Assembly: GCA_964023275.1 (NCBI GenBank)
Contig: OZ029916.1
Span: 44,678,080 to 44,742,079, forward strand
Direction of reading: 5' to 3'
Origin: Norana najaformis
Lineage: Eukaryota; Annelida; Clitellata; Crassiclitellata; Hormogastridae
DNA length: 64,000 nucleotides
Part shown: positions 1,967-54,074 of the stretch, piece after piece
How positions within the stretch are numbered: position 1 is the stretch's first letter
Layout: every line of letters starts with the position of its first letter
The notes under the pieces: model-generated
Told to the model about the DNA's origin: nothing
Databases searched by the model: none
Seen by the model: the letters and a program-made list of their open reading frames with translations, nothing else
Position numbers and translations under genes: made by a program

Positions 1967-4900
1967 GGATGACGAGGAGAAGGACGACGAGGAGGACGAG
2001 GAGGACGAAGAGGACGAGGAGGAGTAGGGGAAAGGGTTGAAGGAAGAGACGAATGATAAGGACGAGCAGGAAAAGAAAGAGGAGGAATAAAAGATGAATG
2101 AGAAGCGCCTAAAGGCAACCATCAGAGGCAGCCAAGTGTAGAAAGTGTTGGCGACTTCATTTTCTCAGCCTCGGCGTACGACGGCGGGTGGCAATGATTA
2201 GCGTACTGGACAATCAACCCAGAGGTTGAGGCTTCAAATCTCAACCAGAGCAAAAAGATACCTGCTCCACTTGCGCCCCTAGCGAACTCAGCTATAAAAC
2301 AAGTACACATGGTTGGTGAGAAGATCAGAGGGCTAGTCGTCCGCCTTGATATGCTGAGGCTAAGAAACTGATGTCGCTTTATATCTACGACGGCATCTCG
2401 GGATTCCCTTTTTCTCTTCTCTTGGTTGTGAATTAAAGATTTGTATTAGTTTCCAATGTTTAATAAGGAAACTCATTTATACTCCTGACTTGTGGCATCA
2501 AAGGCCGTTGACGTCGACTGGGAAAAGATTTGTACAGTTCTCACTTTTTACATGACTGTAAATAGCGATTAAACGCAGCTGATAAATAAAATATATAGCA
2601 ACAGTTGATAGCGTTTAAAGGGTGTCTAATATGAACAATGCGGTTCTAATGTTTTGCGAAATCGTGTGACTGCCAAGGCAGTTGAAGTCGACTTTACCCG
2701 ACAGTCGTGATCTAAATGTGTCCACTGGCGATTATTAGTAGTTTCCAATGTTTAACGACATCTTATGGCATCACAGGCCGTTGACGTCGATTAGGAAAAT
2801 AGTTGTACAGTTCTCACTACCTATACGCTTGCAACTGGCGATTGTAGTTCCTCAGTTTAACGACAGCTTATGGCATCAAAGGCCATTGCCGTCGCCCTCC
2901 TCCTTTATCCAGGCTTGGGACTGGCACTACCCCCAAACAAGGCAGTGGCGGAGTTGCAACTGGCGATTAAATATGGCTGACAAGTATTATAGCAACATTT
3001 GATAGCGTTTTAAGGGTGTCTAATAGGAACAATGTACATATAAAATTTTGCGAAATCTGGTGGCTACCAAGGCAGTTGAAGTCGACCTTTTTACCCTACT
3101 GTCGTGTCTAAATCCTTCCACTGGCGATTAGTAGTAGTTTTCAATGTTTAACGACATCTTATGGCATCAAAAGCCGTTGACGTCGGTCTCCTCCTTTATC
3201 CAGGCTTGGGACTGGCACCACCAAATTACGGCAGTTATTTATTTATTTATTTAGCGTATGCAGTTCGCGCTAAGCCAGCATGCAGCAGCCTCATCAGCAA
3301 CATGGAGTGCGGATAGACCGCCCGGGAAACTAGTTATTGTACAGACATCAACAATGTGGGACATAGTTTGGATTTCTCCACAGCTGCAGAAAGGGGAGGT
3401 AGCCTGCTTCCATCGAACCTGATTCGCCGCACAGCGGCCCTGACCGGTTCTGAACTGGTTCAGAGTAGACCAGAGGCGACGTGGCAAGGTGAAACCAGGG
3501 GGCCAGACAGATGGCACGGACACGAGGGAATGGTTTACAACATCAGTTGCAGACCACTCGGAACTCCAGACCGAATTAGCTGTCATGTCCACTGGTGAAT
3601 TCAGCCACACAGGCCGTCTCGACGGTAGACGCACAGTTGGATGGAGTGCGATATCAGCGTTCAGCGGGAGACTGTCATTCAGTTGGACTTTAGCGAGTAG
3701 TCTCGCCGTCGCCTCCTGTCTTCTGAGATGTGGTGGAGGGATGTTACATAGGACCGGAAGCCACGGCAGAGGGGTGGGACGAAGTGTGCCGGAGATGATG
3801 CGCATTGATGTGTTCAGCTCTACGTCAAGCAGGTGCGTGTGGCTTGAGCGAGCCCAGACAGGTGCACAATACTCAGCTGTTGAGTAGCACAGGGCCAGTG
3901 CTGAACTGCGCAGGGTCTGGGCATTGGCTCCCCAACTTGAGCCGGCAAGTTTGCCTAGAAGGTTGTTACGAGTACCAACCTTGGCCGCAGTTTTCTTCAT
4001 GTGCTCGTGATAAGTCAATGACCTGTCCAGGGTCACACCCAGGTATACCGGGTACGGCTCATGTCTGATGTGCTGCCCGTGGAGGTAGATTCTCAGCTCT
4101 CGATTGGCCTGAGCATTGTAGAGATGAAAGGCGCAGGAGACTGTCTTGGTTACACTTGGTTGGAGTCGCCACATCTTAAAGTACCCCACCAGCCGCTCAA
4201 CGTCCGCGTTCAGCACCTCTTCCACTTCCTCCAGAGTTTTACGTTGCACCCCCAGGGCGATGTCATCAGCATACGCAAATTTACGAGATTGCGTTGTTGG
4301 GAGGTCATTGACATAGATGTTGAAAAGGCATGGTGATAAGACCGAGCCCTGGGGGAGCCCATTGAGTTGGGTTCTCCACGAGCTGATCCTGTCGCCCAGG
4401 TGCACCCGAAAGCGTCTGTTTCTGAGGAAGACCACTATCATCTCCGTGAACCACGTTGGGAATGCCTTTGAGATCTTCAGCAGCAGCCCCGTGTGCCAAA
4501 CAGTGGGGTGTTAGCTAAAGATTTCGCACCGCAGTTGAGTTTTATATTACTTTCGCAATTCTTTCTGATCGTCATATGTATTTGTTGCATCGTTGCGGTC
4601 AAAAAACTGTGGACAACAGAGAAAATTTAGTTTCTTTTGTGTTTTTCGCTGAAGAAACAAATTTGTTGAGGTCTGAATTTGTTTATCAGATCGTTTTGCT
4701 TCTGCTGCGTTAAGGATCACACGACAGAAAACTCCGATGGCATCAAAAAAGTCATTCGATCCGAATATGACTCATTAGGACCCATCAGGTTCTCATTTTA
4801 AATAAATAAATAAATAATTAATTTAATTTATTAACTCAATAAATAAATATTTCAATTTTCTAACTAATTATTTAATTAAAATTATTTAATTAATTTATTT

Positions 4901-12760: not shown

Positions 12761-13487
12761 GTAAGAAAATTTCATGCTGACAACTTATTAATTAACAGAA
12801 TAAATAATTACAGTAACGACGTTTCAATGCCGTATAATTAACTGGTTAAATAAATGGCAATTGAATAACGGTTTTTCAGCGAATATTATTAATTTTGGAC
12901 ATTATTAATGATACTAGCAAGAACATAAAAGAAGAATAACATAAATAATGAATAAATGAAATAACCTACATAAATAAATACATTCAGTTAACAATTAAAA
13001 AATAAACATATTCAGATAAAAATCAATCAATAAGTTAAATGAGTGAATAAAGAAGTATATTTGCTGCAGGAGTTGGAGTGTGCTTATGTCGTTCTTCTGA
13101 TGGCCATCTATTGGATGTCGAGTGCACTTCCGATCGCAGTTACGGCTCTACTTCCGGTCATTCTGTTTCCGCTCATGGGACTCATGAGCGTCAAGGCCGT
13201 CGCCAGAAACTATATGACGGTAACGATATAACGGTGAACTCAGATTACATGACGGTAACGATATTAGATCGAACGTGGAACACGTATGAAATGGCGGTAA
13301 CGATATTAAATCGAACACTGAGCACAAATTGCGTTATGTGTTTATTTGTTTATAAGAAATTTGTTTCTGGCGACTTCTTACGAATAAAACTTAGTAATTC
13401 CCGCCAGGGCTGAAGTTTGTTCGACATTCATTAAGAACATAGCGTATATAGTGAACGCAATTGTTATTATTATTATTATTATTACTT

Positions 13488-13547
<60 letters not shown>

Positions 13548-16500
13548 GTGCTACTGCTACTACTACTACTACTACTCTACTACTACTACTGCTACTACTA
13601 CTGCTACTACTACTGCTACTACTACTACTGAGACGCAAGTTACAACACCTCTGAGTAGATATCTTGAAGCAGCGCTATATAAATGCTCTAAATGATTTAC
13701 AGTGGCCTAGTGGTAACACTTCTGCATTTCATGGACGCATTTGAGTTTCGAAACCTTTGGCGTATTATAAAAACTGTGATCCGTTGTCGAGCAATTTGTA
13801 CATAGCTACTGTACACAAATCTATGTTTGGGTTAAACACCGAGTTCCTTTGGCTCCAGGACACGAGTTTTGTGTTGCTTGGTGGACTGATGATGGCGCTG
13901 GCAGTTGAGAAATCAAACTTCCACAAACGACTCGCATTAAGGGTTCTACTGCTAACGGGAACGAAGCCTATCGGGTAACTATCTGACTATCTGTCTATAT
14001 CTGACCATCTGTCTATATCTGACTATCTGTCTATATCTGACTATCTGTCTATATCTGACCATCTGTCTATATCTGACTATCTGTCTATATCTGACTATCT
14101 GTCTATATCTGACCATCTGTCTATATCTGACTATCTGTCTATATCTGACCATCTGTCTATATCTGACCATCTGTCTATATCTGACTATCTGTCTATATCT
14201 GACTATCTGTCTATATCTGACCATCTGTCTATATCTGACTATCTGTCTATATCTGACCATCTGTCTATCAGAGTATCCGAGTATCTGACAAATTGACAAT
14301 CTGACTATCTGATCATCTTATCTATCTGATTAATTATCTGACTATCTGATTGTCTGTCAATAGGCTTCACTTATTTATTTCGTGTTATTTAGATGTCCGT
14401 CTGACCATCGGCTTATTGCATTTATCGTAAGTGTTCCTTTAGTGTCCTTATCCGGTAACCTTTCGCCATAGTTTTTGGTTCTTTTCTTGTACTGTTTTCT
14501 GTTTTAGTGTTCGATAGTATTGTTTTATTGTTCTATTATAGTATTCGTTAGTATTCTTTCAAAGTTTTTTCAAAGTGTTCCTTAGTATTGTTTGAATTAT
14601 TTTTTTAGGTTTCTGTATTCATCACTGCTTATATAGTATTCTTTTAGTGTTTTGTCATAGGTTTTCATTAGTGTTCTTTCAGTATTTTATCATAAGTATT
14701 CGTTAGCATTCTTTCAGTGTTTTGATACCTCTCCCGCAAAAAGTCTTGGTCATATAGGATTCTGATTCTTTTCCAGTATCCTGCTAGGAGTGATGTTGCC
14801 CACTTGGTTCCTTTCCATGTGGATCAGCAATACAGCCACTACCTCCATGATGCTCCCAATCGCAGGAGCCGTCGTCGAACAACTTGGTGAAGGACTTCGA
14901 CAAGAGAAAACACTTCTCACTGCTTCAAGTGCAGGTCAGAAAAAGTTCTTTGACATAATCGTAATCATAACCGTTTAAAAGTAAAGTATCCCATATCCCA
15001 CAAGTGAGATACTCATTTCCTTTTTTTTGGCTCTTGATACGGGGACAGTGCATCGCAGGACTTGCCGTTTACTTCCCAGCTTACGCCGGTACCAAATTAT
15101 ACTCCTTGGCGACAGAGGCATGGCGTACGCAAACAACTTGCCCAGGCTCGTTTCACGGAGTCAAACCCGCAACCGCATGATCATTGACCAAACACGTTAC
15201 CGATACTCCACTGTGCCGCAATCATAATCTTCGATTTCTCCAGCCCACGAAAAGGCTATGTTGCGTGAACCTGCTTATTCACAGGCGCTCATTCAAAAAC
15301 ATCTTGCTGAGGCAGGTATGGTCAGGTTCGACTCCAAGATCAGATCCAGAGATCAGAGGCAGATAGTTACTGTGGGTGATGCATATTCAACTGAATCAGG
15401 GTGCGTTTTGTAAGTAAACCGGTGGAACTTTCTCCACCCAGACACTGGTTTAGGCTATGCCCGTTGAAGATACATTTCCTCCAATCATTTTACTTAGTAC
15501 ACTGCTCAGTAAAGCACTTTAAGTCTCAATTTTTGTGGTATACAAATCACTTTTGATATCGGTTTTGTCATATGGGAAGCAATGTTAAATCACCTTTTGT
15601 TATATACGAACTATACTATTCTTAAAGGGTACAGCATAGCTTCATCTCTTGTCACGCAAGGAACACGTTTATATCTTTTCCTATCAAACACATACCAACG
15701 ATTTTTAAATATCATTTTATCATATTCGACGCGTTTAAAATCTCTTTTTGACAAAACTACCCGTATCATTTACACATAGATAATCCGACATTCACGAATG
15801 ACACCGGAAGTGATAAGGAATTGGACGGCAGAGGGCAGTGCGAGGCACAGGACGACGAAAGTGACCGTAACCACACTACTGAGTATGAAAAGGAGACTTG
15901 TATTGACGAAGAGAAGTAAGTTCTTAACAATCCATACCCTAAGAATCTTAGTAAGGTGCCTGAAGTGCTTAAGGTGACATGTGACAAGGCGAGTATGGCT
16001 AGTTTAGGTAAGGTTAGGTAGGTGGTAAGGTATGGTAAGCTAAAGTAAACTGAAGTAAGCTAAAGTAGGGAAGTAGGGTATGGCATGTCAGGTAAGGGAA
16101 GGCAAGACAAGGTATGGTAAAGTAAGGTGAGATAATTTGAATCAAAGTAAAGTGAGGTCTGGTTAGGTCATGTGAAATAAGATTAGGTTAGCTTTGAGTG
16201 AAAGGCCGATGTAGAAGTTGCGCTTATGTGTAGTTTTACAAAGTTTCTGTGCAAATTATTATCATTACATTACATTACAGTAATGCCAAGTGTCTTGTAG
16301 AGGATGCGCAGTGAAAGAGAAAGAAACGCCGGAGAAGTCTGCTGACTCATCCGCTGCTCTCAGCCCATCTCAAGCGATCGCTAAAGAACCAGAACTAAAT
16401 GACCATGGTAAGATGGAACGTGCGGAAGGGTCAGAGGTCAGGTCGGATGCTGCTGCTGCTGCTGCGGACGAAGAAATCAAAGGGGTGATGGAAAACTTTG

Positions 16501-18227
16501 AGAAGATGCTTAGCCTGGCTGTAGCTTATTCAGCGACAGTCGGTGGAACTGCGACGCTCACTGGAACGCCACCGAACCTCGTCTTTGCCAAGCTGGCCAA
16601 CAAGTAAGCCAGTAACTCAAGTAAGCCAGTAACTCAAGTAAGCCAGTAACTCAAGCAAGCCAGTAACTCAAGCAAGCCAGTAACTCAAGTAAGCCAGTAA
16701 CTCAAGCAAGCCAGTAACTCAAGTAAGCCAGTAACTTCAAGGCGATAAAGTTAATCAGCGAATATACAAACAAAGTTTAATTAATTTCTTTAAGATAATC
16801 AGAATGAAAATCCGGAGTGTCTCATCGCTATAGTCAAACTCAAACTATATATCACTGTAGGAGTACATATACCCCGGCCCTCTAACGAACAAACTAAGAA
16901 GTCCATTACTGCTACTGCCATGTGTTGAATAACAGAGCAGTGATAGTCGTTATAATGTTTGACACAAGGGTGGGGAGAAAGAAGGGTAATCGTAATCGTA
17001 AGCTGTAGATTTCTACAGCGCCCTACGAAAGCTAAGTCGCGGGAACCAGCTTATTAACAGGCGCTCAGTCAAAATAAAATCGATAGGAAGGAAGGGTACG
17101 GTTCTAGGTCAAGATGCGAGTCAGACAGGCAGACAGTCAGACGGCTATGGTGGGTGGTGTTTGGAATTGAACCGGAAAGTGAGATAAGAGGAAGAGGAAG
17201 AATCAGGATAGGATTTGTGGAAGAGGAGTGTTTTCAGTTTTGAATGAAAGACCTGCGCAGAAATTGCAAGAGGTGAATTGTTGGTGAGTTCGTATAATAA
17301 CTGAGTAAAAATCTTCTCTTCAAAGACATCTGTAGAACGCTGTTGTGGTGAGGGAGCAATGCAGTCGGTAAAATAGTTATCAGTTGCGTTCAGTTGATCA
17401 TTATCGTCAGAAATTACGAAAGTAAGGATAAGGCAACGTTAACGGCCTTGGAAAGACATCGTTAAACTGCTAGACCTACTATACAAGATTAAAAGCAGCT
17501 TTTCTAAAGTACCTTTAAAATGGCTGCAGGATAGTCGTTGGTTTCGTTCAGTTCCTCGCTTTCGTGGGAAACTGGGAAAGTGTAGATAAGTCAGAATCCT
17601 TCCAGAGTTAATGCCTTTGTCTGTGTATTGTTTTGGTGAACTGAATGTTAGAACTAGAACTTCTGGTTCTGTTTTGTAGTTTCTATGAAGAACACGGTCG
17701 CTCTGCTCCGATTTCTTTCTCTTCGTGGGCTCTCTTTGGCTTCCCCCACGCCATCATCTGTCTCGCCATCACCCTTGCCTGGCTACAGTTCTTCTATCTA
17801 GGATGGAAGTAAGGTCTCATCTAGCTATCCTTCTAATCCTTCCAGCTGTTGATCCATCCGCTCGTTCATCCGTTTTTCTGTCCGTCCGTCCGTCCGTCCG
17901 TCCGTCCGTCCGTCCGTCCGTCCGTCCGTCCGTCCGTCCGTCCGTCCGTCCGTCCGTCCGTCCGTCGATCCATCCATCAGTGCGTTTTAAACTTTTGATA
18001 TAATAGCATTGATAAGAGGATTTATTTAGCGCCGTCGCACGGCCGAGGCAGAAAAAGGGCACTGTACATGAGTTCAAAAATCAACGACAATCATAAGATA
18101 TCTTAAAAAGATAGGTATTGAAGAAAACCATTTGGATTAAATGCGTGAATAAATTAATTGATTAAACAATTTGCCGCTGACTTCTACTATTTATACTACA
18201 GTAGTAGTAGTAGTGGTGGTAGTAGTG

Positions 18228-18258
<31 letters not shown>

Positions 18259-21200
18259 CAGTAGCAGCATGAGTAGTAATAGTAATAATTGTAGGTAGTA
18301 GTAGTATTTGAAAGTTTTCCATATCTCTCTTTTCACGTCCAATACATCATGTGATAGATGTTATTCTATATTTAGATCGTGTTGTTTCTGTTGCTTTCGG
18401 CAACACGGAGACAACAGTGGCAACAGAGTGGCAAACGCCATCCGAACACAATACAACGCCCTCGGCCCAATGACGTAATTATCCTCCTCAGTCTTGTCGA
18501 TTCAGTTTATATAGCCCCCACTGTAGGATAAAATGGTACTGGCTTCCCGTTCTTTCTCGGTCGCAACTCTAAGGCTCTGCAATTCTCTGATGGTTTCTGT
18601 CCGCTTTGAAGTAGGACGGCCTCGATGTTGACGGTAGTTTTGCGATGTTGTTCAGGCCAGGGATGAAGTACCCCATCATTTTCGGATTGTGTAACCACCG
18701 TAGCTTTTCACGATCTCAGAGGATTCATGGATCGCTCTTTTCAAAAGTGGTTTTGCTAAGAAGTGAACTTCGATCGATTGTTTGGGCTGTTTGATGACTG
18801 CGGATGGGGAGTTTTCGCATTAGATTAGTTTAGCATAAATTAATTTAGACACTTATGTATGCATGTGTGTATGTATGTGTGTATGTATGTATTTATGTAT
18901 GCATGTATGTATGTATGCATGTATGTATGTGTGTATGTATGTATTTATGTATGCATGTATGTATGTATGCATGTATGTATGTATGCATGTATGTATGCAT
19001 GTATGTATGCATGTATGTATGCATGTATGTATGCATGTATGTATGCATGTATGTATGCATGTATGTATGTTTGTATGAATAGATACATTTAAATATGTGT
19101 GCATATGTCAGTATGCATGTACGAGCGTATGTGCATGTATGTATTTATGTATGTGTCTATGTATGTATGTATGCATGTATGCATCAAGCACTTTTATAGC
19201 ATGTTTAAGTACATCTGAGAAGTGCTATTCTAAGCAAGTTCATTTTAAGACAGTTTAAAAATGTATGGCGAAAAGAACATGTTAAGTGGAAGGTCCAACC
19301 CTGGAGATGGCTGAATTGGTTGGAGTTGATGTGCAGAAGCGGGGAACCATGTCTCCACGGGCATTAGAGCGCAGTTATCTCTCAATCACTTATATATATG
19401 TGCATGACAGTCAATCAATCAGTCAGTCAGTCAGTCATTCGCCCATTTTTCTATCTGTTACTCAATCAGTCAGTAATTACTCTCTTGTCATACAATCAGT
19501 TTGTTACTCTTTTTGCAGGTTTTATTTTGAAAAACGTTTTTGTTAGTTTTGCTCCTTATTGTCGAATGTTACCCGATTAATATTTTTAAAGATTTTTTCC
19601 GAACTGTGAAGTTTAAATTAACTGTTTCGTTTTTATTTAGTTTTGCCGAGAGTTCTACTCTGGTCTTCTTCGTTCTGCTGATAATTCTATGGTTCACACG
19701 TGATCCAGGAGCGTTTTCCGGCTACAGCCAGTTCTTCAAGAAAGGGTGAGGAAAAGACGTTCATGCATATACGCTGACGTCAGGTCACTGACCACGTTTG
19801 TAGATGAACAAGCAGTTGGAACGGCCATAGTTAAGTCGTCATGGTCCAGTGGCCTTCATGGTTCAGTAGTCATGGTTCAACAGACACGACTCAGTGGCTA
19901 TGGGCCACAATGGCTTTGGTCCAGTGGTCGTGGTCATGTGGCCATCGTGGCTATAATGATTCAGTGACATGGTCCTGTAGCCATCATGGATGAGTGACCA
20001 TCATGGTCCAGTGACTCGGTCAAGTAGCCATCCACGTTAAGCCTTTGATGCAAAAAATACTGACGATATTTATCGATATTTTGCCTCTGTTACAATTTGC
20101 CTCAATGTTACACTCAGGGTTCCGGTCCAATCCCCAAGAAACTAACTCAACCGAGTCATATCCCGTGCAGTTAGCCTACCTAGGGTATGTTTACGTTGCG
20201 CATTTTTAGGATTGTTTTATTGGTACGTAACAAAGGGTTTTCACACCTTAAAAGCGCGCTACGGAAGTTTTGTTACTTTGATTTTTCAAGCTTCACTTCA
20301 CTTCACTACGTTATGGATGTTTCTTTTAGGACAATGTGCTAAAGTTTTTCGGTTTTTGCAGGTACGTTACAGATGCCGTACCTGCGATTTTCGTATCCAT
20401 CTTGCTGTTTGCATTTCCATCAGAAAAGCCGAAGGTATTCTGCTTTCGAGAAAATGAAGGTAATCAGTGACATTGTGTATGAATTTATATACTTATGAAA
20501 TACTTCAATCGTTCGTTCATTCAAACTCTCACCCGTTAAATTTTTGGATAATTAGCCATAGACACCTTTGTATTTAGCCTATGCATAAATGTTTTATTTA
20601 CTTATTTTATGCATTGGTATGTATGTATGTATGTTTTATATGTGTATGTATGTGTATGTACGTATGTATGTTTTATATGTGTATGTATGTGTATATACGT
20701 ATGTATGTGTATGCATATGTATGTGTGTATGTATGTATGTACGTGTATGCATATGTATGTGTGTATGTATGTGTATATGTATGTATGTATGCGTGTATGT
20801 ATGTCTGTGGGTGGTTATTTATTCTAGTTTATTTATATGCTTATTTCATTATTCATTCGTTCTTTCTTTCGTTTATGTGAAGATGCCGTGAAACGGAAAT
20901 CGACGGAGGTGCCCTTGTTATCCGACTGGGAATCGGTCTGCAGTAAGATCGCATGGGGTCCACTCATCATCATGGGAGGCGGAATAGCAATGGCTGAGGC
21001 CTGCCAGGTTAACCACCTGTCAATCATATCATCTGCCAGTCATCATGACCTGTCAATCATATCATCTGTTAGTCATCATGACCTGTCAATCATATCATCT
21101 GTCAGTCACATTCATCACGCACCGTCACTGGAGCTTGTGTAGCGCATTTTCCGTTTAGCGATCCCATACGAATGTCTTGTCTTCAACCGTCCATGAGCCG

Positions 21201-24200
21201 ATGAATACTATTGAATATCTTTATGGCGCATTGGACCATCCTTCTTTAACAGGCATCTATTGCAAATACAAGTCGTTCCACCAATAACGTAGCAGGCAAC
21301 ATTTTCAACAGACCATTGAGCAGGGCATTCGTCTGGCCTAACTGGGGACGAACTGGAATAAACAAGCAATCCTCGACTACAGGAACTATAGAGGAACTAT
21401 AGAGGAACTATAGAGGAACTATAGAGGAACTATAGAGGAACTATAGAGGAACTATAGAGGAACTATAGAGGAACTATAGAGGAACTATAGAGGAACTATA
21501 GAGGAACTATAGAGGAACTATAGAGGAACTATAGAGGAACTATAGAGGAACTATATAATAACTATAGAGGAACTATAGAGGAACTATAGAGGAACTATAG
21601 AGGAACTATAGAGGAACTATAGAGGAACTATAGAGGAACTATAGAGGAACTATAGAGGAACTATAGAGGAACTATAGAGGAACTATAGAGGAACTATAGA
21701 GGAACTATAGAAGATAAAATAGGACAGGATAGGATTGGATAGTAGAGGATAGTATAGAATTGCAGAAGATAGAATAAGATGGACTAATGGAATATGATAG
21801 GATTGTATATAATAGGATATTATAGGAGATAATAGGATAGGATAGAATTGGATATGGCTGCCATGCTACCAGTTCACCAACTTTGCTCCATTTGCAATTT
21901 CTGTCTGGGCTTTTCACTCGAAACGGAAAACACTTCTGTTCAAAGCATCCTATCCTGAGGCTCGTCTTCTCCGTATCTTTTACGCCCCTCCAATTCATAC
22001 AACATTCATCGCAGTTTGTCTACCTGCCCTGCTTTTGGATATGGACTGAGAACCGAACCGAACATTACATTTTGTTTTGACTGAGCGCCTGTGCTTAGGG
22101 TGGTTCCAAAGACAGCCTTCCTCGATGCTTAAGAAATCCGGCGATTACGATTACGATTACGAAACACCAATGACCAGGGATCCAGCTCCCCACTCCTGAT
22201 ACCGAAGCATTTACATGTAATCGGATATTTATATGACACCACTTAGATTGCAGCCTCCTCATCGACCAATTTATATAGCGCCTGAACAGTGTTCTGTAAC
22301 AAACATACACACACATACATACATACATACAAATATGCATATATACATACACATATACATACATACCTACATACATACATACATCATACGTACATACATA
22401 CATGCATACATACATACATACATACATACAGACAGACAGACAGACATATATACATACATACATACACATATGCATACATACATATGTACATACATACATA
22501 CACACATACATATATACATACATACAAATATGCATACATACATACACATATACATACATACCTACATACCTACATACATACATCATACGTACATACATAC
22601 ATACATGCATACATACATACATACATGCATACATACATACATACATACATACACAGACATACAGACATACATATATACATACATACATACATACACATAT
22701 GAATACATACATGCATACATACATGCATACATACATACAGACAGACTTACAGACATACAGACATACATACAGGCAGAGTTCTGAGACTAGTCGTTCTGCT
22801 GTGTTGCAGAGCAGTGGTCTGTCCAAGATGGTAGGTGATCAGCTCATGGCTCTGCGAGTTCTGTCTCCTTGGCTCATGGTCCTCTTGATAGTTGCCGTCG
22901 TCGCCATGTTGACGGAAGTGACGTCAAACACGGCTGTTATTACGCTTGTTACTCCTATGCTCTTCACGATGGTAAGGGAACCAGTCGATGTCTGCCATCT
23001 TGGTTTCTGCGTTGAACCAGTCGATGGCAGCCATATTGTATTGTATATAGGTAGATGTCAAGGTAGTCGTTGATGTAATCTCTCTGAATTACAACTCATT
23101 ACAATTAATACATTAAATCGAATTACACTGAGTCACAATGAATTACATCATATTTTAATTACATTGAATTACTTGGAATAAATTACATTGAATCACATTG
23201 AATTACATCGAAACTTTACATTGAATTACTTTGAATTACTTCGATGCGTTATACTAAATTACATTGTATTATCTCGATAAATTAAATTCAATTACACTGA
23301 TTTACGTTACGCTTTATTACGTTGCAGTACGTCGCATTACCATCCATTACACTGTCATGTAAAAGCAATGTTACGCCCATTATGTTTTGGTGTTGTTATT
23401 TTCCTAGTCGCGTAACCTGCGTTTGAACCCGCTGTACCTGAGTCTTCCAGCGACCATGGCTTCCTCCTACGCCTTCATGCTCCCCGTGGCCACTCCTGTC
23501 AACGCTCTTGTCTTCGCCCATGGACGCGTCACTGTACTCGATATGGTAAGTCACCGTAGTCGATATGGTAAGTCACTGTACTTGACACGGTAAGTCACCG
23601 TAATCGATATGGTAAGTCACTGTACTCGATATGGTAAGTCACCGTAATCGATATGGTAAGTCACTGTACTCGATATGGTAAATCACCGTAATCGATATGG
23701 TAAGTCACTGTACTCGATATGGTAAGTCACCGTAATCGATATGGTAAGTCACTGTGCTCGATATGGTAAATCACCGTACTTGATACGGTGAGTCACTGCA
23801 TTCGTTATGGTAAATCACCGTACTTGATACGGTGAGTCACTGCATTCGTTATGGCAAGTCACTGTACGCGATATAGCAAATCACGAACTTGGTATAGTAA
23901 GTCACCGCATTTGATATGGTAAGTCACCGCACTCAATATGTTAAGTTACGTACTATGATTCGTCAAAATTGATATGGTAAGTCTTCGAACTCCACGTGGT
24001 CAGTCACCGTACTTGATAGAGTAAGTCACTTTACTCGATAGCGTAACTCACCGTACTTGATACGGTAAGTTACTGTACTCGATATTGTAAGTCATCATAC
24101 TTGATAGTATAAAAACAGTATAAGTAAGACGAAGAAGAGGACGAGGTAAGTCATGGTAAATCATTATGGGAAGTCAGCTTATTCAATATGGCGGGTAAGC

Positions 24201-24985
24201 GTAACAAAAATAGTAAGTCACACTGTTACTCAGCTTGGTAAGTCACCGGTCAAGGAATGTTGTGCCGTTATTCGTTTGCTCTTCTAGTTTAATCGCTTAA
24301 CCGAAAGACCATTAAATCCAGGACCAAAATCCAGGACCATTTAATTCAGGACCAATTAATCCAGGATCATTTAACCTTGGACCATTTCATCTGGGAGCAT
24401 TACACTCATTCTCCTTTGAAAATTGCACCATGCCTTTGCTTACCTCTCCTTTGTTTACCTGTGCATGACTGTGTTTACCTGTTTTCAAATACTTACCACT
24501 GCTTACTCATGCTTACCTCTGCTTATCTGCGTTTGCCTGTGTTTATTATGTGTTTACCTATGCTTACTAGGCTTACCTGTGCTTACCTGTGTTAGCCTAT
24601 GCTTACCAAGTGCTTATCTGTGCTTACCTGTGTTTACTTATGCTTACCAGTGCTTAGCTGTGCTTACCTGTGTTACCTATGCTTACCAAGTGCTTATCTG
24701 TGTTTACCTAAGCTTGCCAATGCTTATCTGTGCTTACCTGTGTTTACCTAAGCTTACCAGTGCTTATATGTGCTTAAATGTATCTACGTATACTTTCCAG
24801 TGCTTATCTATGTACAGGTGAAGGCCGGCTTTGCCATGAACATAGCTTGCATTCTTGTCGTAACGCTCGGCATCCACACCTGGGGTAAAATGGCGTTCGG
24901 AATAGACTCCTCATTTTGGACGACGGATTCGAACTCTGACCTCTTCAACTCGACGTCACTTGTCAACGAAACGACCTTCGGCTAG
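12629..24985 (+). CDS. SLC13A2/3/5-like: SLC13 gene B, complete sodium/carboxylate cotransporter (13 coding exons, 639 aa)
   Basis: This is a complete SLC13 transporter, a multi-pass plasma-membrane protein that couples sodium to uptake of citrate-cycle intermediates or sulfate. Coding exons are 12629-12760, 13070-13219, 13859-13974, 14777-14934, 15780-15915, 16301-16603, 17680-17808, 19641-19745, 20362-20459, 20883-21007, 22810-22971, 23408-23545 and 24818-24985; phases agree at every junction. The first signature is SMWISNTATTSMMLP and the second is LTEVTSNTAVITL; GGTATLTGTPPNLVF is also typical. An acidic hydrophilic loop (exons 5-6) separates the halves. The C-terminus has NST and NET glycosylation sites. 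The start has A at -3 and G at +4. Length is slightly above the usual 560-620. SNTA in the first motif favours the dicarboxylate/citrate branch over sulfate; the exact substrate is inference. Several introns carry tandem repeats beginning at the donor. Confidence 0.93.
13070..13219 (+). CDS. SLC13A2/3/5-like: SLC13 gene B, exon 2 (150 bp)
   Basis: Encodes CAYVVLLMAIYWMSSALPIA and then VTALLPVILFPLMG, the family's conserved early helices. The donor segment ATGACG|GTAACGATAT is copied twice more downstream. Confidence 0.9.
13211..13308 (+). repeat. Donor-containing repeat at gene B exon 2 (3 copies)
   Basis: ATGACGGTAACGATAT at the exon 2 donor recurs at about 13249 as CATGACGGTAACGATATTA and at about 13291 as ATGGCGGTAACGATATTA, spaced about 36-43 bases. 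Confidence 0.7.
13462..13632. repeat. (TAC)n microsatellite
   Basis: About 170 bases of TAC units in gene B intron 2, after a short ATT run. Confidence 0.9.
13859..13974 (+). CDS. SLC13A2/3/5-like: SLC13 gene B, exon 3 (116 bp)
   Basis: Begins after CTCCAG and encodes DTSFVLLGGLMMALAVE and then HKRLALRVLLLTGTKP, both typical of SLC13. An 18-bp minisatellite begins a few bases after the donor. Confidence 0.88.
13976..14275 (+). repeat. 18-bp minisatellite beginning at gene B exon 3 donor
   Basis: Unit GTCTATATCTGACCATCT (C or T at the variable site), about 16 copies, starting immediately after the GTAAC donor. Confidence 0.85.
14777..14934 (+). CDS. SLC13A2/3/5-like: SLC13 gene B, exon 4 with first SNT motif
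   Basis: Encodes GVMLPTWFLSMWISNTATTS and MMLPIAGAVVEQL, the first sodium/substrate-binding hairpin. Acceptor TTTCCAG, donor GTCAGA. Confidence 0.92.
15025..15235 (-). mobile_element. SINE family 4, tRNA-like, in gene B intron 4
   Basis: The minus strand has GGCACAGTGGAGTATCGGTA (A box region) and GCGGTTGCGGGTTTGACTCC (B box), then about 150 bases of unrelated body. The cloverleaf is imperfect, so a retroposon is preferred to a tRNA gene. Confidence 0.5.
15780..15915 (+). CDS. SLC13A2/3/5-like: SLC13 gene B, exon 5, acidic loop
   Basis: Encodes a hydrophilic, Asp/Glu-rich stretch (TNDTGSDKELDGRGQCEAQD and on), expected for the large cytoplasmic loop between the two transport repeats. It is chosen because its phases match exons 4 and 6 and it has a GTAAGT donor. 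Confidence 0.72.
16301..16603 (+). CDS. SLC13A2/3/5-like: SLC13 gene B, exon 6 (303 bp)
   Basis: The first half is a charged loop with an Ala run. The second half encodes LSLAVAYSATVGGTATLTGT and PPNLVFAKLANK, a strongly conserved SLC13 segment. The acceptor at 16299-16300 keeps frame. The donor AA|GTAAGC is the first unit of a 17-bp tandem array. Confidence 0.88.
16602..16737 (+). repeat. 17-bp donor-containing array at gene B exon 6 (8 copies)
   Basis: Unit AAGTAAGCCAGTAACTC, eight copies. The first spans the exon-intron boundary (AA|GTAAGC). Copies 4, 5 and 7 have GCAAG in place of GTAAG. Confidence 0.92.
16985..17300 (-). mobile_element. LINE family A 3' fragment in gene B intron 6
   Basis: The minus strand matches the 3' part of the longest copy (40748-41050): tail of CGTAATC repeats, AGATTTCTACAGCGCC, and degraded RT C-terminal coding. 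Confidence 0.75.
17680..17808 (+). CDS. SLC13A2/3/5-like: SLC13 gene B, exon 7 (129 bp)
   Basis: Encodes FYEEHGRSAPISFSSWALFG and FPHAIICLAITLAWLQFFYL. The homologue in gene A is 1573-1701. Confidence 0.9.
17877..17966. repeat. (TCCG)n microsatellite
   Basis: More than 20 perfect GTCC units about 70 bases after the exon 7 donor. Confidence 0.9.
18850..19185. repeat. (ATGT/ATGC)n microsatellite
   Basis: About 330 bases of ATGTATGC-type units in gene B intron 7. Confidence 0.9.
19641..19745 (+). CDS. SLC13A2/3/5-like: SLC13 gene B, exon 8 (105 bp)
   Basis: Encodes FAESSTLVFFVLLIILWFTR and DPGAFSGYSQFFKK. Acceptor TTTAG, donor GTGAGG. Confidence 0.9.
20362..20459 (+). CDS. SLC13A2/3/5-like: SLC13 gene B, exon 9 (98 bp)
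   Basis: Encodes YVTDAVPAIFVSILLFAFPS and EKPKVFCFRENE, a membrane helix and cytoplasmic loop. Donor GTAATC. Confidence 0.9.
20615..20808. repeat. (GTAT)n microsatellite
   Basis: GTATGTATGT-type units filling much of the short intron before exon 10. Confidence 0.9.
20883..21007 (+). CDS. SLC13A2/3/5-like: SLC13 gene B, exon 10 (125 bp)
   Basis: Encodes VPLLSDWESVCSKIAWGPLI and IMGGGIAMAEACQ. The WGPLIIMGGGIAMAEA stretch is a family hallmark. A 33-bp repeat begins beside the donor. Confidence 0.9.
21010..21112 (+). repeat. 33-bp repeat beside gene B exon 10 donor (3 copies)
   Basis: Units begin CCTGTCAATCATATCATCTG and end AGTCATCATGA; the first starts within ten bases of the donor at 21008. 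Confidence 0.8.
21381..21711. repeat. 11-bp minisatellite, about 30 copies
   Basis: Unit AGGAACTATAG, almost perfect, with one variant near 21550, followed by degenerate AGGATAG repeats to about 21855. Confidence 0.92.
21870..22165 (+). mobile_element. LINE family A 3' fragment in gene B intron 10
   Basis: RT C-terminal remnant (GLFTRNGKHFCSKHPILR in one frame), then TTTTGACTGAGCGCCTGTG and a (GATTAC)n tail at 22143-22162. Confidence 0.7.
22305..22765. repeat. (TACA)n microsatellite
   Basis: About 460 bases of CATACATA/GACAGACA units, ending about 40 bases before the exon 11 acceptor. Confidence 0.9.
22810..22971 (+). CDS. SLC13A2/3/5-like: SLC13 gene B, exon 11 with second SNT motif
   Basis: Encodes SSGLSKMVGDQLMAL and then VAMLTEVTSNTAVITLVTPM. 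Acceptor TTGCAG, donor GTAAGG. Confidence 0.92.
23408..23545 (+). CDS. SLC13A2/3/5-like: SLC13 gene B, exon 12 (138 bp)
   Basis: Encodes RLNPLYLSLPATMASSYAFM and LPVATPVNALVFAHGRVTVL, ending DM. Its last 18 bases (VTVLDM) and the donor form the unit of the array that fills the start of the next intron. Confidence 0.92.
23528..24115 (+). repeat. 22-bp exon-donor array at gene B exon 12 (about 26 copies)
   Basis: The unit is the last 18 coding bases (GTCACTGTACTCGATATG, encoding VTVLDM) plus donor GTAA. Copies near the exon are nearly exact; those beyond about 23900 are diverged. Many keep GGTAAGTCAC, a usable donor. Confidence 0.93.
24430..24812. repeat. Minisatellite up to the terminal acceptor of gene B
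   Basis: Repeats of TGCTTACCTGTG and TGTTTACCTATG run to within ten bases of the TACAG acceptor at 24817. Confidence 0.8.
24818..24985 (+). CDS. SLC13A2/3/5-like: SLC13 gene B, terminal exon
   Basis: Encodes VKAGFAMNIACILVVTLGIH and a hydrophilic tail with two N-glycosylation sites (NST, NET), then TAG at 24983-24985. Confidence 0.92.
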   Translation: MKAGFAMNIACILVVTLGIHTWGKMAFGIDSSFWTTDSNSDLFNSTSLVNETTFG

Positions 24986-27539: not shown

Positions 27540-27812
27540 TCCCTTAAGTCCCGCCTGAGAGGCGGTCATGGGTATGAAGTGTTAGCGGCTTCGTTTTTCT
27601 TAGCCTCGGCATATGAGGCCGAGTGGCCAGTCCTCTGCCTTGTCGCTTGATCTTCCCACTGACAGTGTACGGTCAATGTACTCATTATAGCTGAGTTGGC
27701 TAGGGGCGTAAGTGGAGACGAAATCTCGAACAAATTTCTGTCCTGGCGGGGATTCGAAACCCTGATCTCTCGATTAACAGTCCAGCATACTAACCACTAT
27801 ACTATGCGCAAC
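27540..27812 (-). mobile_element. SINE family 1 with tRNA-Asn-like head
   Basis: On the minus strand the head reads TAGTGGTTAGTATGCTGGAC, TGTTAATCGAG and AGGGTTTCGAATCCCC, with A and B boxes and a GTT anticodon loop. A body of about 190 bases follows. The acceptor stem does not pair well, so this is a retroposon, not a functional tRNA. Confidence 0.7.
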
Positions 27813-28289: not shown

Positions 28290-28485
28290 TTTTTTCGAGA
28301 TTTCAGTTCCACTCGATCCTCCTAGCCAACTCAGCTGTAATGATTACACTGACTATACACTGTCAGTTGGAAGATCAGACGACCAGGAGAGGACTGGCCA
28401 CTCGCCCTCATATGCCGAGGCTAAAAAAATGAAGCCGCCAACACTTGATACCCATGGCTGCCTCCAAGGTCAGCTAAGGGTACTC
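28290..28485 (+). mobile_element. SINE family 1 body
   Basis: Shares CTAGCCAACTCAGCTGTAAT, GGCCACTCGCCCTCATATGC and CTTGATACCCATG with the 27540 copy. The head is missing and a (CTT)n tail follows. Confidence 0.6.
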
Positions 28486-40747: not shown

Positions 40748-41815
40748 AATCGTAATCGTAATCGTAATCTCGAGATTTCTACAGCGCTCAACGAAAGCTA
40801 AGTCGCGGGAACCAGCTTATTCACAGGCGCTCAGTCAAAACAAAATCGATAGGCAAAAGGGTCAAGATCCAGGAGTCAGGCACTCAGACAGTCGGACGGC
40901 TACGGTGGATGATGTTTGAAATTGAAGCGAGAAGAGAGATAAGAGGAAGAGGAAGATTCAGGATAAGATTTTTGGAAAAGAAGTGTTTTCAGTCTTGAGT
41001 GAAAGACCTGCGCAGAAACTGAAAGAGGTGAAGTGTTGGTGAGTTCGTATGATGGACCAGACAACTGTCGCAATTCTGGCGGGAGTTTATTCCAAAGGGG
41101 TGGGGCAGCTATGGCTATCGAGCGATTTCCAAATTTTAAGGTTGAGGTGACGGGAGGGCGAAGAAGTGTTAGGACAGATGAGGAGCGGGTTGAACGGAGT
41201 GGTTGGATAGTAAATAATTGACGAAGATAGGAGGGTTGGGAGGATTGAAGTGTGTTGTAGGTGAGGGATAAGACCTTGTACTCTATTCGTTCTGGTATTT
41301 TAAGCCAGTGCAGTGATTTGAGAACAGGGGTGATGTGATGGTGTTTGGGAGTTTTGGTGACAGCACGTGCGAGAGCATTCTGGATAGCTTGTAGGCGATG
41401 TATCTGGGTTGTGTCAATATTGAGGAAAAGTGAATTGCAGTAGTCAAGTTTTGCATGGACTATGGATGTGGCAATGATAGATGCGGTTTTGAAGTCAAGC
41501 ATAGGACGGATTCTGCAAAGGTCGCGGATATGCATAAAGCAAGAGCGGGAAAGATGGGTGATATGATCAGAAAAAGTAAGGTTCTGGTCGAAAATAACAC
41601 CTAAATTACGGACAGAAGAGTTAGTATTAAAGGTGTGGGTGGAGGCAGAGTCCAGGCTGAGGGAGATAGAGGGGTCAGGAATTTTCTTGAGCTGGTCACG
41701 TAGGCCGATAAGTATGAATTCAGTTTTAGATGGGTTCAGGCATAAGAGATTAGATGTCATCCAAGAGGAGATTTGTTTAACCACACAAAGAAGATTTATA
41801 GAGCACCTTTTAAAG
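40748..41815 (-). mobile_element. CR1-like LINE family A, longest copy, RT C-terminal half
   Basis: An intact frame of 294 codons (40900-41784) encodes the end of a CR1/L2-type reverse transcriptase: LCLNPSKTEFILIGL, NLGVIFDQNLTFSDHI, AKLDYCNSLFLNI, LQAIQNALARAVTKTPKHHH, LKSLHWLKIPERIEYKVL and APPLWNKLPPELRQ. The catalytic YxDD block is missing because the copy is 5'-truncated at about 41815. The 3' end has three CGTAATC units at 40749-40770. This copy defines the family whose tails are scattered through the window. Confidence 0.9.
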
Positions 41816-41977
41816 AAAACTGATCAGATGTTCCCGACCAACTTCTGCATTCTTCCACTTTTTATTTTTACGGTTGCGTAGCTTGTGTAATGGCGATTTT
41901 TACCTTAAAACTGCACCGGGCATGTTGCATGTGCCCAGCTGCTTGATTCTTATTCGAAAAACGGACTTCACTGAATA

Positions 41978-45620: not shown

Positions 45621-48600
45621 CTGAAATGCAAACACAACACAGGTAACAAAGGGGAAATAAAGGTAAAGTTAACAAAGTGAATGCAACGGTAAAGGTAACA
45701 AAGTGGAAGTAAAGTAAAAAAGGTAACAAAGTAAAGTAAAAAAGGTAACAAAGTGAAAGTGAAGGTAAAGTTAAAACACTTGTTTACATAAACCACACCG
45801 AAACCATCTCTCAACAGGAACTTCATAAGAACGTGATTATGATTATATTATATGATTCTCTGCAAATCACTGTTTTTACACTTACAATAAAACCCGAGCA
45901 GAATGTCCCACATAAGAGAAAACTGGTGGACTGACCTTGGCTTCGTTAGACACGACCGGTTTGTTGGGAAACTGAACATCGGTGGCTTTCAGAATCGTAT
46001 TCTCTTCAAGAATCGCAGCTTGTGACAAGTTGTGACCGAAAGGCTTAAGAACCAGAAACAAAGTATCACGATCAAAACATCAGAGTCTTGTTCTCGTATG
46101 TTGGTAACTTGACACATGCATAAAGAAAAACTGTTTATTGAAAATAATAACAATAATGATGATGAAAATAATTAAAATGTCATGATGATAATAACACTGC
46201 AACTACTACTAATAATAATAGCAACAATGGCAATAATAACAAAAATGATAATGACAAATGAAAGAAAAAAAGTATCGTTATTGTTGCAGGTATTAAATTT
46301 TTTTATTAATTATTTTATTTACTGTAAATATTGCCATTGTTATCGATATTAAATAGTATTATTTTGTTAAAGATGTTGTACAATTACAGACAAGTCTAAC
46401 GTATGCAAACCTGCATAGCAATTTGTAACATCAGGAACAGTTTGATACTGTAAAAAACTCAATTTCACTGACACCTTGGATGCAAACGTCAGATGCAGGG
46501 GTGAAAGGCCCAGCTGACCAAAGTAATGTAATGTAAATCTCTGAAATTTCTCAGCACCACAGAAAAGCTGCTTCAAGAAAACCAGCTTATTCACCAGCAT
46601 ACATCAAATCAAGTCTTTAAGAGCCAGGTTGTTTGGTCAGTTCAGTGCCAGGTCAGAATCAATGGGGTCAAGCCAGGGAGACAGCGTGGTGCTATGCTGG
46701 AATCTGGCTCTGATGGTATATGGTCACATACCATCTTGTCATATACGTCGCATACTGTCCTGCCATATACAGTCACATGCCTTCTTGCCATATATGATTA
46801 CTTACCTTCTTGCCATAGAGACATTGGTAGAAGATGATTCCCACGGACCAAACATCGACCTTGGATGAGATTTTTGGTGGTTCCTTTCCAACCACAAAGC
46901 ATTCTGGTGGAAGGTACCTGTAACAGATGAAATTACCCTGGTAGAGCTCATTTCAATGTAGAGAACCAGAGAAAACAGGCAGACATTTGTAAAGCACCTC
47001 TTCAAGAAAATTCGTCAGAGGTGTTCCTGACCTAACAACACAAAACTACAATCAGATATAATGAGCTGCAGGATGTCACAATTGCACCCTATCTTCAAAA
47101 AAGCTCATCTCACAGGTTGCACGGTAGCTTGTTTGTATGAAAAAGATCATGAATGGTGCCAATTAGATAGAGTGCTTGGCTTGTAACACAGAGAGTATGG
47201 GTTCAAGCCTCCCTTCAGATGGCTACTGTGTAGGGACCTTGAGCAAGTCCTTCACTCACAATTGCTTCACATCTCAAATTCAGATTTACTGACCTTGCGC
47301 GAGTAATAAATGCATAATAGTAATCATAATATTATTATTAATGATAATAATAATATTATTATTATTAATGATGATAATAATAGTATTATTATTAATGATG
47401 ATGATGATGACAACAACAACAATAATAAAAATAATAATAAAAATAATAAGACACACATGATTATCAAGACTAGCATGATGTACTTACCAGTAAGTACCGG
47501 CGCCCTGAGATGTCAAGTCCATCCCCGACTCTGGACTGTAGTTATCGTCATCCATGACTTTGCTCAGACCAAAGTCCGTGATTTTTATCTCTCCACTCAC
47601 AGAGCCACTGTGCAGTATGTCCCCTGCAAAGCCAGAAATCTTAAGAGGTCAACAAATCCAATGTAATGTAACAGAGCATTTTTATAGCACCTTTTAGGCA
47701 CATTATGAAGGAACTCCTTACAGCCTAAATGATGCTAGAGATAACGTTCACCGGTTCTTCACACCTCGAAATGAATACGCAAGGAGTTCAATGATGTGCA
47801 TGAAACCAGCTGGAAAAGCAGCAAAGATCTAAGAACTAAGTTGGCCACACTCACCTCTCGACATTCCTCCATTGCCAAGTAGAATGTTTCCTGCAACAGT
47901 GAATGAAACACATTCTTCAGTGGCTTTAACAACAACATGATGCATGTATTTGGATATTTGTTGCTGAAAAGCTCATCCTTGCATGTGGGGTGACTGCAGG
48001 ATTTCAGGTTGTAATGAGAAAAATGATCAGAAAAAACATCAGTTTGCTTGTTCAGGAAGTGTAGCTACATTATGTCCCCAACCAGTATTTATGAAAGAGA
48101 CATCAGATGGATATGTACACTTCGGCATCTCTGAGCACTTCTTAACAGGCACTATATAAAGGTTGAGATACATAGAGAGAGAAAGGTGTGTGTGCGTGCA
48201 TATGTGTGTGTGTGTGTAGAGTTCAATACCCTGTTCTGCTGTCATTTTCAGCTCACATGAATTATTGACTGCTAAGAAATTGACTGGTTTTGTCAAATAG
48301 ATTATAATCGCCATCTGTGGTTTCACCTCGAAGCAACCATCAACTAATACCCTATCAATCACGAGAATAGTTCAGCTTTAGCGTGGATTCAGTTAGAATG
48401 CAAATGCTGACTTTATTCTGGGTAATACAAGAGCCTTGTTCAGTACATGATAGCAGAACTATAAAAGTCATTAGATTAGATTAGATTAGAAAGCTGACCT
48501 GGCTTGAGATCGTAGTGAATGACGGGTGGCTTGATTTCGTTCAGGTACTTCAGAGCATTTACAGTTTGGATAATGATCGACCTTGCCTCCTTTTCTGGAA

Positions 48601-51600: not shown

Positions 51601-54074
51601 ACCTGATCACATGACTGATGCTTTGAACATTGTTACAGTGGTGCTGTGGGAATTCTTGAATTATAGTGATTATGATAAGGTACCGTAAAGCATAAAATCA
51701 GGTCATTAACAAGAAGAATAGATAGGTAAATTATAAATTAGGTCAGACAAAGAAAGGTAATAAAAGGCAAGGTAAAGGAAGGTAAGATAAGGTAAACTAA
51801 GTAAGAAAAAGGTAGCTATGGTAATGGATGGTAAATAAAGTAAGGTATTACAGTCAAGGTAAAACAGGCACAACAAAGCTAGGTAAGGAAAGTCAAAGAT
51901 AAAGCAAGATAAGGAAATTGATCATTTTATGAAAAAAGCCTAAAGCATAGTCCTGGGGATGATAGAATTTCTGGATGAAGCACATAACAGGAATCGAAAA
52001 CATAGTACTTAGTTCCTTGGCTCAAATGTTCTTACTGCTTCACTGGATGTTACTAGGAGACCATACATGCAACAGGGTGGTCTGTTTGGCAGCATCCGGG
52101 GTCTGTAATGTAACGATTGCAGGTTCGATCTTGCTGAGCGGACTCCATGTAATGACAAATTGTTCGCACACACTTGTATCTCAATGTAGATTCAGATTTA
52201 CTGACCCTTAAGTGTGTCATGTCATGTCAATTCGTCATCGTCGCGTCGCGACGGTTGACTACATGATAGGATCGTCTTCAACCAAAGCCATCTATTGCGC
52301 GCAGCATCCAACAACCTGGTTCCCGACAAGCCAGTCCATGCCGAGATGTTATCAATCCAACTTATCTTTGGCCTTCCGCGGCCTCGGTTCCCCTCAACAA
52401 GACCGATCATAACACTCCTCTCTTAAGTGTGTAATAAGTGCAATAAACAAATATAAAGAAAATAAATAGCCAAAACTGCTCCAGTAAAAATATTTGCCAA
52501 AGGTCCAGACCAATGAAGATTGACCTTGCTTAATTAAGTGTAATTAATAAAAATAAATCAGAAAAATGTTACAACTGCGCTGGCGACTAACGGTTTGTCG
52601 GCAGGTCTAAGAAATCCGTCGTTTTCTTTGGTGTTCTTTGTTCCTTTGGCACTGGTGGAAGGAGCGGATGTGGGCTTTCGTTTTCCGAGAACACGGCGCT
52701 GTTTCTCCATTTCCTCTCTTTCCTGCCCTATTCTCTCCTGCTGCCTAAATATCATCCATTGTCATCACCAGCATTAGTCAGATATTAATTTTTGTACCCA
52801 AGGAAAAAACGATCCTTGAGACAATATATATAAATATGTATTTAATTAATAAGTATATATTTAAGTAACTGGAAATTTGAAAAGCACCTTCTACAAACTT
52901 CTCATAAATGCCATTATTATATCTGTCATTAGTTAATTATTATCATTTCTCTTTTACCTGAGTTAGGAATGATTGCTGAGGAATTGAAAAATTATGTCAA
53001 GTGGTAGAAATATCATTTCTGGAAAATCAGACCTTGTCCCAGTATTTTTATTAATTAGATAATAATTTTATTATTGTATTACTTTAAAAAGATAATTTTA
53101 AATGCTCCAATTAATGAATCCACCCCAAAATAAATTGGGTTGCACAAAACTGTTTGCACACCAAGATCAGAAAAAACGGTTCATTAAATGCCAAAACACT
53201 GGAATACAGGACCTCTGAAAATGAAGCCGGGGTGTGTGATAGTCTAGCAGTTAGCATGCTGGTCTGTCAACAGAGCATAAAATCAGTATGCCGACCATAC
53301 ATTGTCAGTGAGAAGATCAGACGATGAGGGAGAGGACTTGACACCCACCCTCATATGTTGAAGTTAAGAAAGTGAAGTAGTCGCTACCACTTTGTACCCT
53401 TAAGCTAACCCATCGGTTACTGCAAGGGACTGTTCTTCCTTTTTCTCTTGAAATTGAAGCTGACTTACTTGGCGAGGTCAGTGAATGCATATCTGTCAAC
53501 TGACTTACTTGGCGAGGTCAGTGAATGCATATCCATCAACTGACTTACTTGGCGAGGTCAGTGAATGCATATCCATCAACTGACTTACTTGGCGAGGTCA
53601 GTGAATGCATATCCATCAACTGACTTACTTGGCGAGGTCAGTGAATGCATATCCGTCAACTGACTTACTTGGCGAGGTCAGTGAATGCATATCCATCAAC
53701 TGACTTACTTGGCGAGGTCAGTGAATGCATATCCATCAACTGACTTACTTGGCGAGGACAGTGAATGCATATCCATCAACTGACTTACTTGGCGAGGTCA
53801 GTGAATGCATATCCATCAACTGACTTACTTGGCGAGGTCAGTGAATGCATATCCGTCAACCCAGTTCTCGACAAACGTGGCTCCCTGGCGCTGGGTGACA
53901 AACTGCCCGAGACGAAGACGGTTCTCCATGCAGCGCTGACGAGCCGACTTCTTTTCGAGGTTGCTCTGCAAGTCAGTTACAAAGATGCATAGATACAGAC
54001 ACTTACACCTTTGGTAAACAACAGCTGGTTGGCCAATTTGTTTCCAAGGTTGCTCTGTCAAGTGCATGTATGTA

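Follow-up and report, generated by a model that had tools for sequence, protein, structure and literature searches.

An exon end and its 5' splice site repeated ten times in tandem in a Tousled-like kinase gene

Introduction

Tandem repeats can carry a working 5' splice site with them. The best described case is the human ABCA7 intron-18 VNTR, whose 25-bp unit begins at the GT of the exon-18 donor. According to the sections of that report drawn on here (PMC5954066), people have about 12-427 units and the first GT is the canonical donor. A single unit is retained in about 2% of transcripts, which puts them out of frame, and this share is unaffected by array length. Transcripts with a premature stop increase when decay is blocked. 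Longer arrays lead to more skipping of the next exon, with a 3.2-fold difference between the extremes. First-donor use and the low rate of retention in ABCA7 show that such a donor-array system can work.

Repeats at exon boundaries have also been described elsewhere. De Grassi and Ciccarelli found internal tandem repeats at exon-intron boundaries in human duplicated genes and, in the passages considered here, tied them to novel introns (PMC2812944). A review, again in the part considered, describes intron gain by tandem genomic duplication of AGGT segments (PMC3443670). Among the papers listed from the open-licence literature, judged by title and opening of the abstract, none describes a genome in which several donors are embedded in tandem arrays.

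Here we analyse a window of 64 kb (the whole stretch of DNA under study, 64,000 nucleotides) in which a kinase exon runs into a tandem array built from its own end and its own donor.

Results

The kinase gene and its reading frame

A search of 5.8 billion proteins returned Tousled-like kinases (TLK) among the best 120 of 3515 matches. Within these, the top match is a 687-aa entry (P0001, 76%), the best match with a named organism is Capitella teleta (73%), and oysters follow at 71-72%. Judged by protein similarity, the animal is probably a lophotrochozoan and perhaps an annelid. Human TLK2 (5o0y) ranks first in the PDB searches. With P0001, P0003 and P0006 as tblastn queries, TLK exons were placed from 58836 down to 45519. 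The exon set is defined by homology and runs from Ta to T12, leaving out any exon before or after these. T12 (45620-45519, minus strand) may not be the last exon, as AAATCAAA/GTACGT is a possible further donor (here and below a slash marks the splice site).

The exon of interest, T2, is followed by an intron of 1084 nt that starts at 53828; the next exon lies at 52744 (Table 1). When T0 to T12 are joined through the donor nearest the exon (donor 1), the frame stays open for 526 codons. This joined piece has T12 cut at 130 nt and starts without Ta or any exon before it. With any of donors 2-10 the same piece ends at codon 115, in a TAA directly after ...FTDLAK. These stops sit 36-356 nt upstream of the T2/T3 junction, with more exons downstream, and T2 itself would grow from 137 nt with donor 1 to 177-497 nt with the distal donors. 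Because the frame is open through donor 1 and closed otherwise, the gene looks functional, and its frame is set by the choice of donor. Homology and the joined exons thus bear out what a sequence-only reading of this DNA had proposed: the TLK identity, the repeat unit, the donor position, and the claim that only the copy nearest the exon preserves the protein while the others read into TAA after DLAK.

The T2 acceptor and the start of the exon (CAGAGCAACCTTGGAAA...) occur a second time at 54063-54009 on the minus strand, some 90 bases upstream of the true site. This second copy, which is followed by a possible donor, is a possible decayed duplicate or mini-exon.

Table 1. Positions in the window of the exon ends and donor-bearing repeats discussed in the text
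Feature	Position	Strand	Description
TLK exon T2	53829..53965	-	137 nt, final coding bases + AA; placed by tblastn with P0001, P0003, P0006
TLK exon-end/donor array	53461..53860	-	ten 40-bp units, each 32 exon-type bases + GTAAGTCA
Array copy 1, true end of exon T2	53860-53821	-	
Exon-proximal donor GTAAGTCA	53821..53828	-	frame kept by no other donor of the ten
TLK exon T3 (next exon)	52592..52744	-	begins GCAGCAGGAG, completes AAG = K
Second TLK array, spans T10 donor (46805)	46717..46817	-	diverged 25-bp unit TATGGCAAGAAG/GTATGTGACCATA, x4
SLC13-type exon E1 repeat, donor 13220	13208..13320	+	about three degenerate copies, by eye; weak
Array after E2, adjacent, not spanning the donor	13980..14268	+	18-bp unit x16; starts 5 bases into the intron
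SLC13-type exon E4 array, spans donor 16604	16601..16741	+	17-bp unit CAA/GTAAGCCAGTAACT, x8
Array after E6, adjacent, not spanning the donor	21015..21108	+	33-bp unit x2.8; starts 7 bases into the intron
SLC13-type exon E7b array, spans donor 23546	23528..24106	+	22-bp unit, 18 exon bases + GTAA, x26.7

Ten nearly identical donors

Tandem Repeats Finder (TRF) reports the array at 53460-53860 with a period of 40, 10.0 copies, 98% matches and 0% indels. With head-to-tail units in the range of roughly 10-100 bp, it is a minisatellite. On the minus strand the unit reads GTTGATGGATATGCATTCACTGACCTCGCCAA/GTAAGTCA. The array begins 32 bases inside T2, where the coding exon goes on 5' of copy 1, and continues with nine further units. 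Six of the ten copies equal the consensus; a single base deviates in each of copies 1, 3 and 6, with GAC instead of GAT in copies 1 and 6, and copy 10 has two deviating bases. The ten-copy array of the sequence-only reading therefore stands, its description of the unit as perfect was slightly too strong, and the recent expansion it had proposed fits units that are 98% alike.

All ten copies retain GTAAGTCA. The 11-base donor context is identical across the ten donors, and the exonic context is nearly so. With up to 3 mismatches allowed, a 20-base core of the unit has 10 matches in the window, every one inside this array, and none in 100 shuffles. The donor itself is ordinary in strength. It lacks a G at -1, and its computed pairing with the U1 5' end is -5.6 kcal/mol, joint 14th among the 23 donors examined. 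Calling it a strong donor, as had been done, was an overstatement.

A hairpin around each donor (ACUGAC...GUCAGU) was considered and rejected: a 50-nt piece folds no better than its shuffles (z -0.42), and the same holds when copy 1 is joined to the far flank (z 0.10).

On the intron side, 3' of copy 10, other intron sequence follows and then a dispersed repeat (53268-53399), of which the window has two further, partial copies (27570-27698 and 28351-28453). The copies are 73-77% identical, and the element is possibly a SINE.

More exon ends within arrays

The array had been thought unlike any known class of element. A human relative exists in the ABCA7 VNTR (PMC5954066, in the part used here). 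Nor is the array a one-off: four more exon ends in the window run into repeats of exon end plus donor. One belongs to TLK and is diverged, and three belong to a plus-strand gene for an SLC13-type transporter, one of them weak (Table 1). In the weak case, E1, TRF finds 13208-13235 alone, with a score of 42. Exon E7b ends in ...GTCACTGTACTCGATATG/GTAA. None of the four unit lengths (40, 17, 22 and 25) is a multiple of 3, so a second donor shifts the frame. At each of the five array-bearing exon ends, unspliced read-through runs into a stop in 16 codons or fewer.

Are the distal donors kept? Across four arrays the GT is present in 36 of 45 distal copies, and a truncated copy at an array end accounts for one of the nine misses. 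The T2 array retains 9/9, E7b 21/26 (including the truncated copy among its misses), E4 4/7 and T10 2/3. In the 17-bp array of E4, the sole variable column is the T of the GT. With 36 of 45 retained, the distal GT is not specially kept, which on balance fits donors that are not needed. In the 27-copy array of E7b the two GT columns vary by 0.08 each, compared with a mean of 0.138, and this is mildly against full neutrality.

The intron that holds the E7b donor array has a second array at 24492-24809, with a 10-bp core CTTACCTGTG that is the reverse complement of a donor consensus. This array stops 8 bases short of the last intron base at the E8 acceptor. Of the 18 CTTACC motifs in 21 introns, 12 fall in this one intron, between E7b and E8. 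The two arrays could pair in RNA.

Donors, acceptors and exon interiors

The window is rich in repeats. TRF gives 107 rows, and at a score of at least 50 there are 63 merged arrays, which cover 15% of the window. Two long reverse-transcriptase-like open frames on the minus strand (3251-4510 and 40900-41823) presumably belong to non-LTR elements. The sole Rfam match at gathering threshold in the window is a twister-P1 ribozyme (2891-2960, minus strand; 70 bits compared with a gathering score of 67.2); it lies away from the T2 array, in a window that otherwise looks animal.

To place the donors against this background, the 30 bases around each site were searched for within 300 bases on its intron side, with thresholds of 24, 28 and 30. 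At these thresholds 5, 5 and 4 of 23 donors recur, and so do 26, 22 and 21% of 2111 intron positions. None of 200 exon-interior positions, all at least 45 bases from every donor, recurs within 300 bases. Acceptors recur in 2, 1 and 0 of 24 cases. The probability of so few, given the introns, is 0.032, 0.018 and 0.003, binomial values that are approximate, since intron positions close to one another are not independent. Compared head-to-head, donors and acceptors differ weakly in this test (Fisher 0.19, 0.085 and 0.050, with T0 one base off). By overall recurrence score, donors are not above intron positions (Mann-Whitney P = 0.91) nor above acceptors (P = 0.64). The two acceptor echoes are at E5b and T2, where TRF shows no array of their unit.

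Within -32..+8, a range picked after seeing the data, an array edge is found at 6 of 23 donors compared with 1.42 expected from intron positions (P = 0.0022). Acceptors have one in 24 (donor versus acceptor, Fisher P = 0.042). Excluding Ta and T0, which are part of all other site tests, leaves 21 donors and 22 acceptors and gives P = 0.0012 and 0.041. The uncertain E4 acceptor is excluded from all acceptor counts, and the site counts exclude a possible SLC13 exon between E3 and E4 and the possible T12 donor AAA/GTACGT.

The edge and recurrence tests are compatible if arrays are kept out of exons but can cross donors, because an array that reaches a donor must then begin there. Hence, in a small sample and with statistics that are partly post hoc, donors look permeable to repeat growth rather than like hot spots of it. 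Exon interiors are a barrier to repeat growth and acceptors seem to be one.

Discussion

Origin and persistence of the array

We think that the T2 array is probably a near-neutral minisatellite that is tolerated by the gene, since position would select the first donor and mistakes would end in a stop. It may have started with slippage or unequal exchange that doubled a 40-bp stretch reaching from the 3' end of the TLK exon across the first eight bases of the intron. The duplicated stretch would then have grown to ten copies. Any product of further exchange would still start with the correct exon end; because this end always comes first, growth of the array would be tolerated. The same process appears to have struck other donors of this repeat-rich genome.

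As the ten donors are alike in their immediate sequence, position must decide between them. The donor nearest the exon would mostly be used, with exon definition favouring an exon of 137 nt over one of 177-497 nt. A later donor would bring TAA right behind the exon, and nonsense-mediated decay would clear the resulting transcripts. There is a point against this explanation. Test substrates with two strong donors often favour the one nearer the intron, which would predict distal donor use in the T2 array. Eperon 1993 and Hodson 2012 are reportedly works connected with such two-site donor choice. Neutrality is not certain for arrays of this type either, since longer arrays in ABCA7 raise skipping of the next exon (PMC5954066, in the sections used).

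Alternatively, the array could regulate. Distal donors would then be used commonly and tunably, and copy number or the levels of U1 or SR proteins would set how large a share of the TLK mRNA is intact and how large a share stops after T2. The shared 11-base context and nearly shared exonic context leave no local feature that favours donor 1, all nine alternative donors give a stop immediately after the exon end, and array length in ABCA7 does alter splicing of the next exon. Yet the more diverged arrays have lost some distal donors, similarly built arrays are present in a transporter gene unrelated to TLK, and single-unit retention in ABCA7 stays at about 2% whatever the length (both ABCA7 points from the consulted part of PMC5954066). 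We therefore hold such a poison array to be very unlikely. The arrays might instead be kept because many 5' splice sites near the intron start recruit U1, and so suppress premature polyadenylation or strengthen the exon. In favour of this, sense GTAAGT is found 38 times in 21 introns, where 50 shuffles average 7.1, and 28 of the 38 lie inside the E7b and T2 introns. This role is nevertheless highly improbable in our judgement, because three of the four arrays have lost distal GTs and no such echo accompanies 18 of the 23 donors.

Donors could also be places where repeats are born, if their sequence, U1 binding, R-loops or the chromatin at exon ends promoted duplication. The piling of array edges at 6 of 23 donors, with 1.42 expected and one in 24 at acceptors, could reflect real hot spots. 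Protection of exons alone also piles edges there, however: edges are bound to collect at donors if exons exclude arrays. Recurrence at 5 of 23 donors compares with 22-26% of intron positions, and the Mann-Whitney test sees no difference (P = 0.91). Birth at donors is on these grounds a rather unlikely account. That the assembly has inflated one or a few true copies is extremely improbable. The count of ten comes from one assembly, but the copies carry distinct point differences, 400 bp fits inside one long read, and the window has 63 merged arrays of many periods.

What the arrays may be used for

Constructs with two sites are the usual means of studying how a cell chooses between equal 5' splice sites. 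Natural arrays of 4-27 copies, in which context is nearly constant and position differs, would offer a direct test of donor choice in living tissue. If it holds across the genome, the asymmetry between donors and acceptors would reveal through evolution how each kind of site is recognised. Where genomes are rich in repeats, some variation in splicing may also come, unnoticed, from copy-number change at the ends of exons, as in ABCA7.

A wider version of our proposal is that in this lineage 5' splice sites are transparent to minisatellite growth across the whole genome. Hundreds of exons would then end in 2-30 near-identical donors under a strict first-donor rule, and an array length that changes fast between individuals would tune the amount of functional mRNA, for example of TLK. 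We offer this as a speculation that is unlikely to hold.

Comparison with known systems

Like CeRep25B of C. elegans, the T2 array is an intronic minisatellite that can be linked to splicing; CeRep25B is linked to alternative splicing, and its unit, unlike that of T2, is not described as holding the exon's donor in the portion of the source considered (PMC4039745). With intron gain from AGGT segments, as outlined in the pages of the review used here (PMC3443670), it shares the tandem duplication of a stretch that contains splice-site sequence. Here, in contrast, the repeat supplies donors only, and the acceptor stands at the far end of the 1084-nt intron in unrelated sequence. Since this acceptor, before 52744 (ATATTTAG/GCAGCAGG), is outside the repeat, we rejected an intron created by tandem duplication. 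The repeats of De Grassi and Ciccarelli are closer, being tandem repeats at exon-intron boundaries that are able to change splicing. In the passages cited they vary between paralogues and are tied to novel introns (PMC2812944), whereas our array lies behind the donor of a conserved kinase gene.

The closest relative is the ABCA7 VNTR, again as described in the sections drawn on here (PMC5954066). In both, the array abuts the exon and includes its donor, and each unit offers a 5' splice site (CAA/GTAAGTCA in 10/10 T2 units). In both, the unit length is not a multiple of 3, so that one retained unit gives a frameshift and a premature stop; in T2 only the exon-nearest donor keeps the frame. Unlike the ABCA7 unit, which starts at the GT and holds no exon bases, the T2 unit consists of 32 coding and 8 intron bases. 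With 32 exon-type bases ahead of the GT, a detail that does not define the type, we take the T2 array as a variant of the ABCA7 type. The ABCA7 array is known to vary in length in people and its effect on splicing has been measured, whereas the T2 array is known from the sequence of one assembly. Given ABCA7 and the human boundary repeats (PMC2812944), each as far as the cited parts go, the array is of a known kind. The novelty lies in a unit that includes coding bases and in a conserved kinase gene that has nine perfect decoy donors. New, too, and unlike ABCA7, are five array-embedded donors (one weak, one diverged) among 23 in a single 64-kb window.
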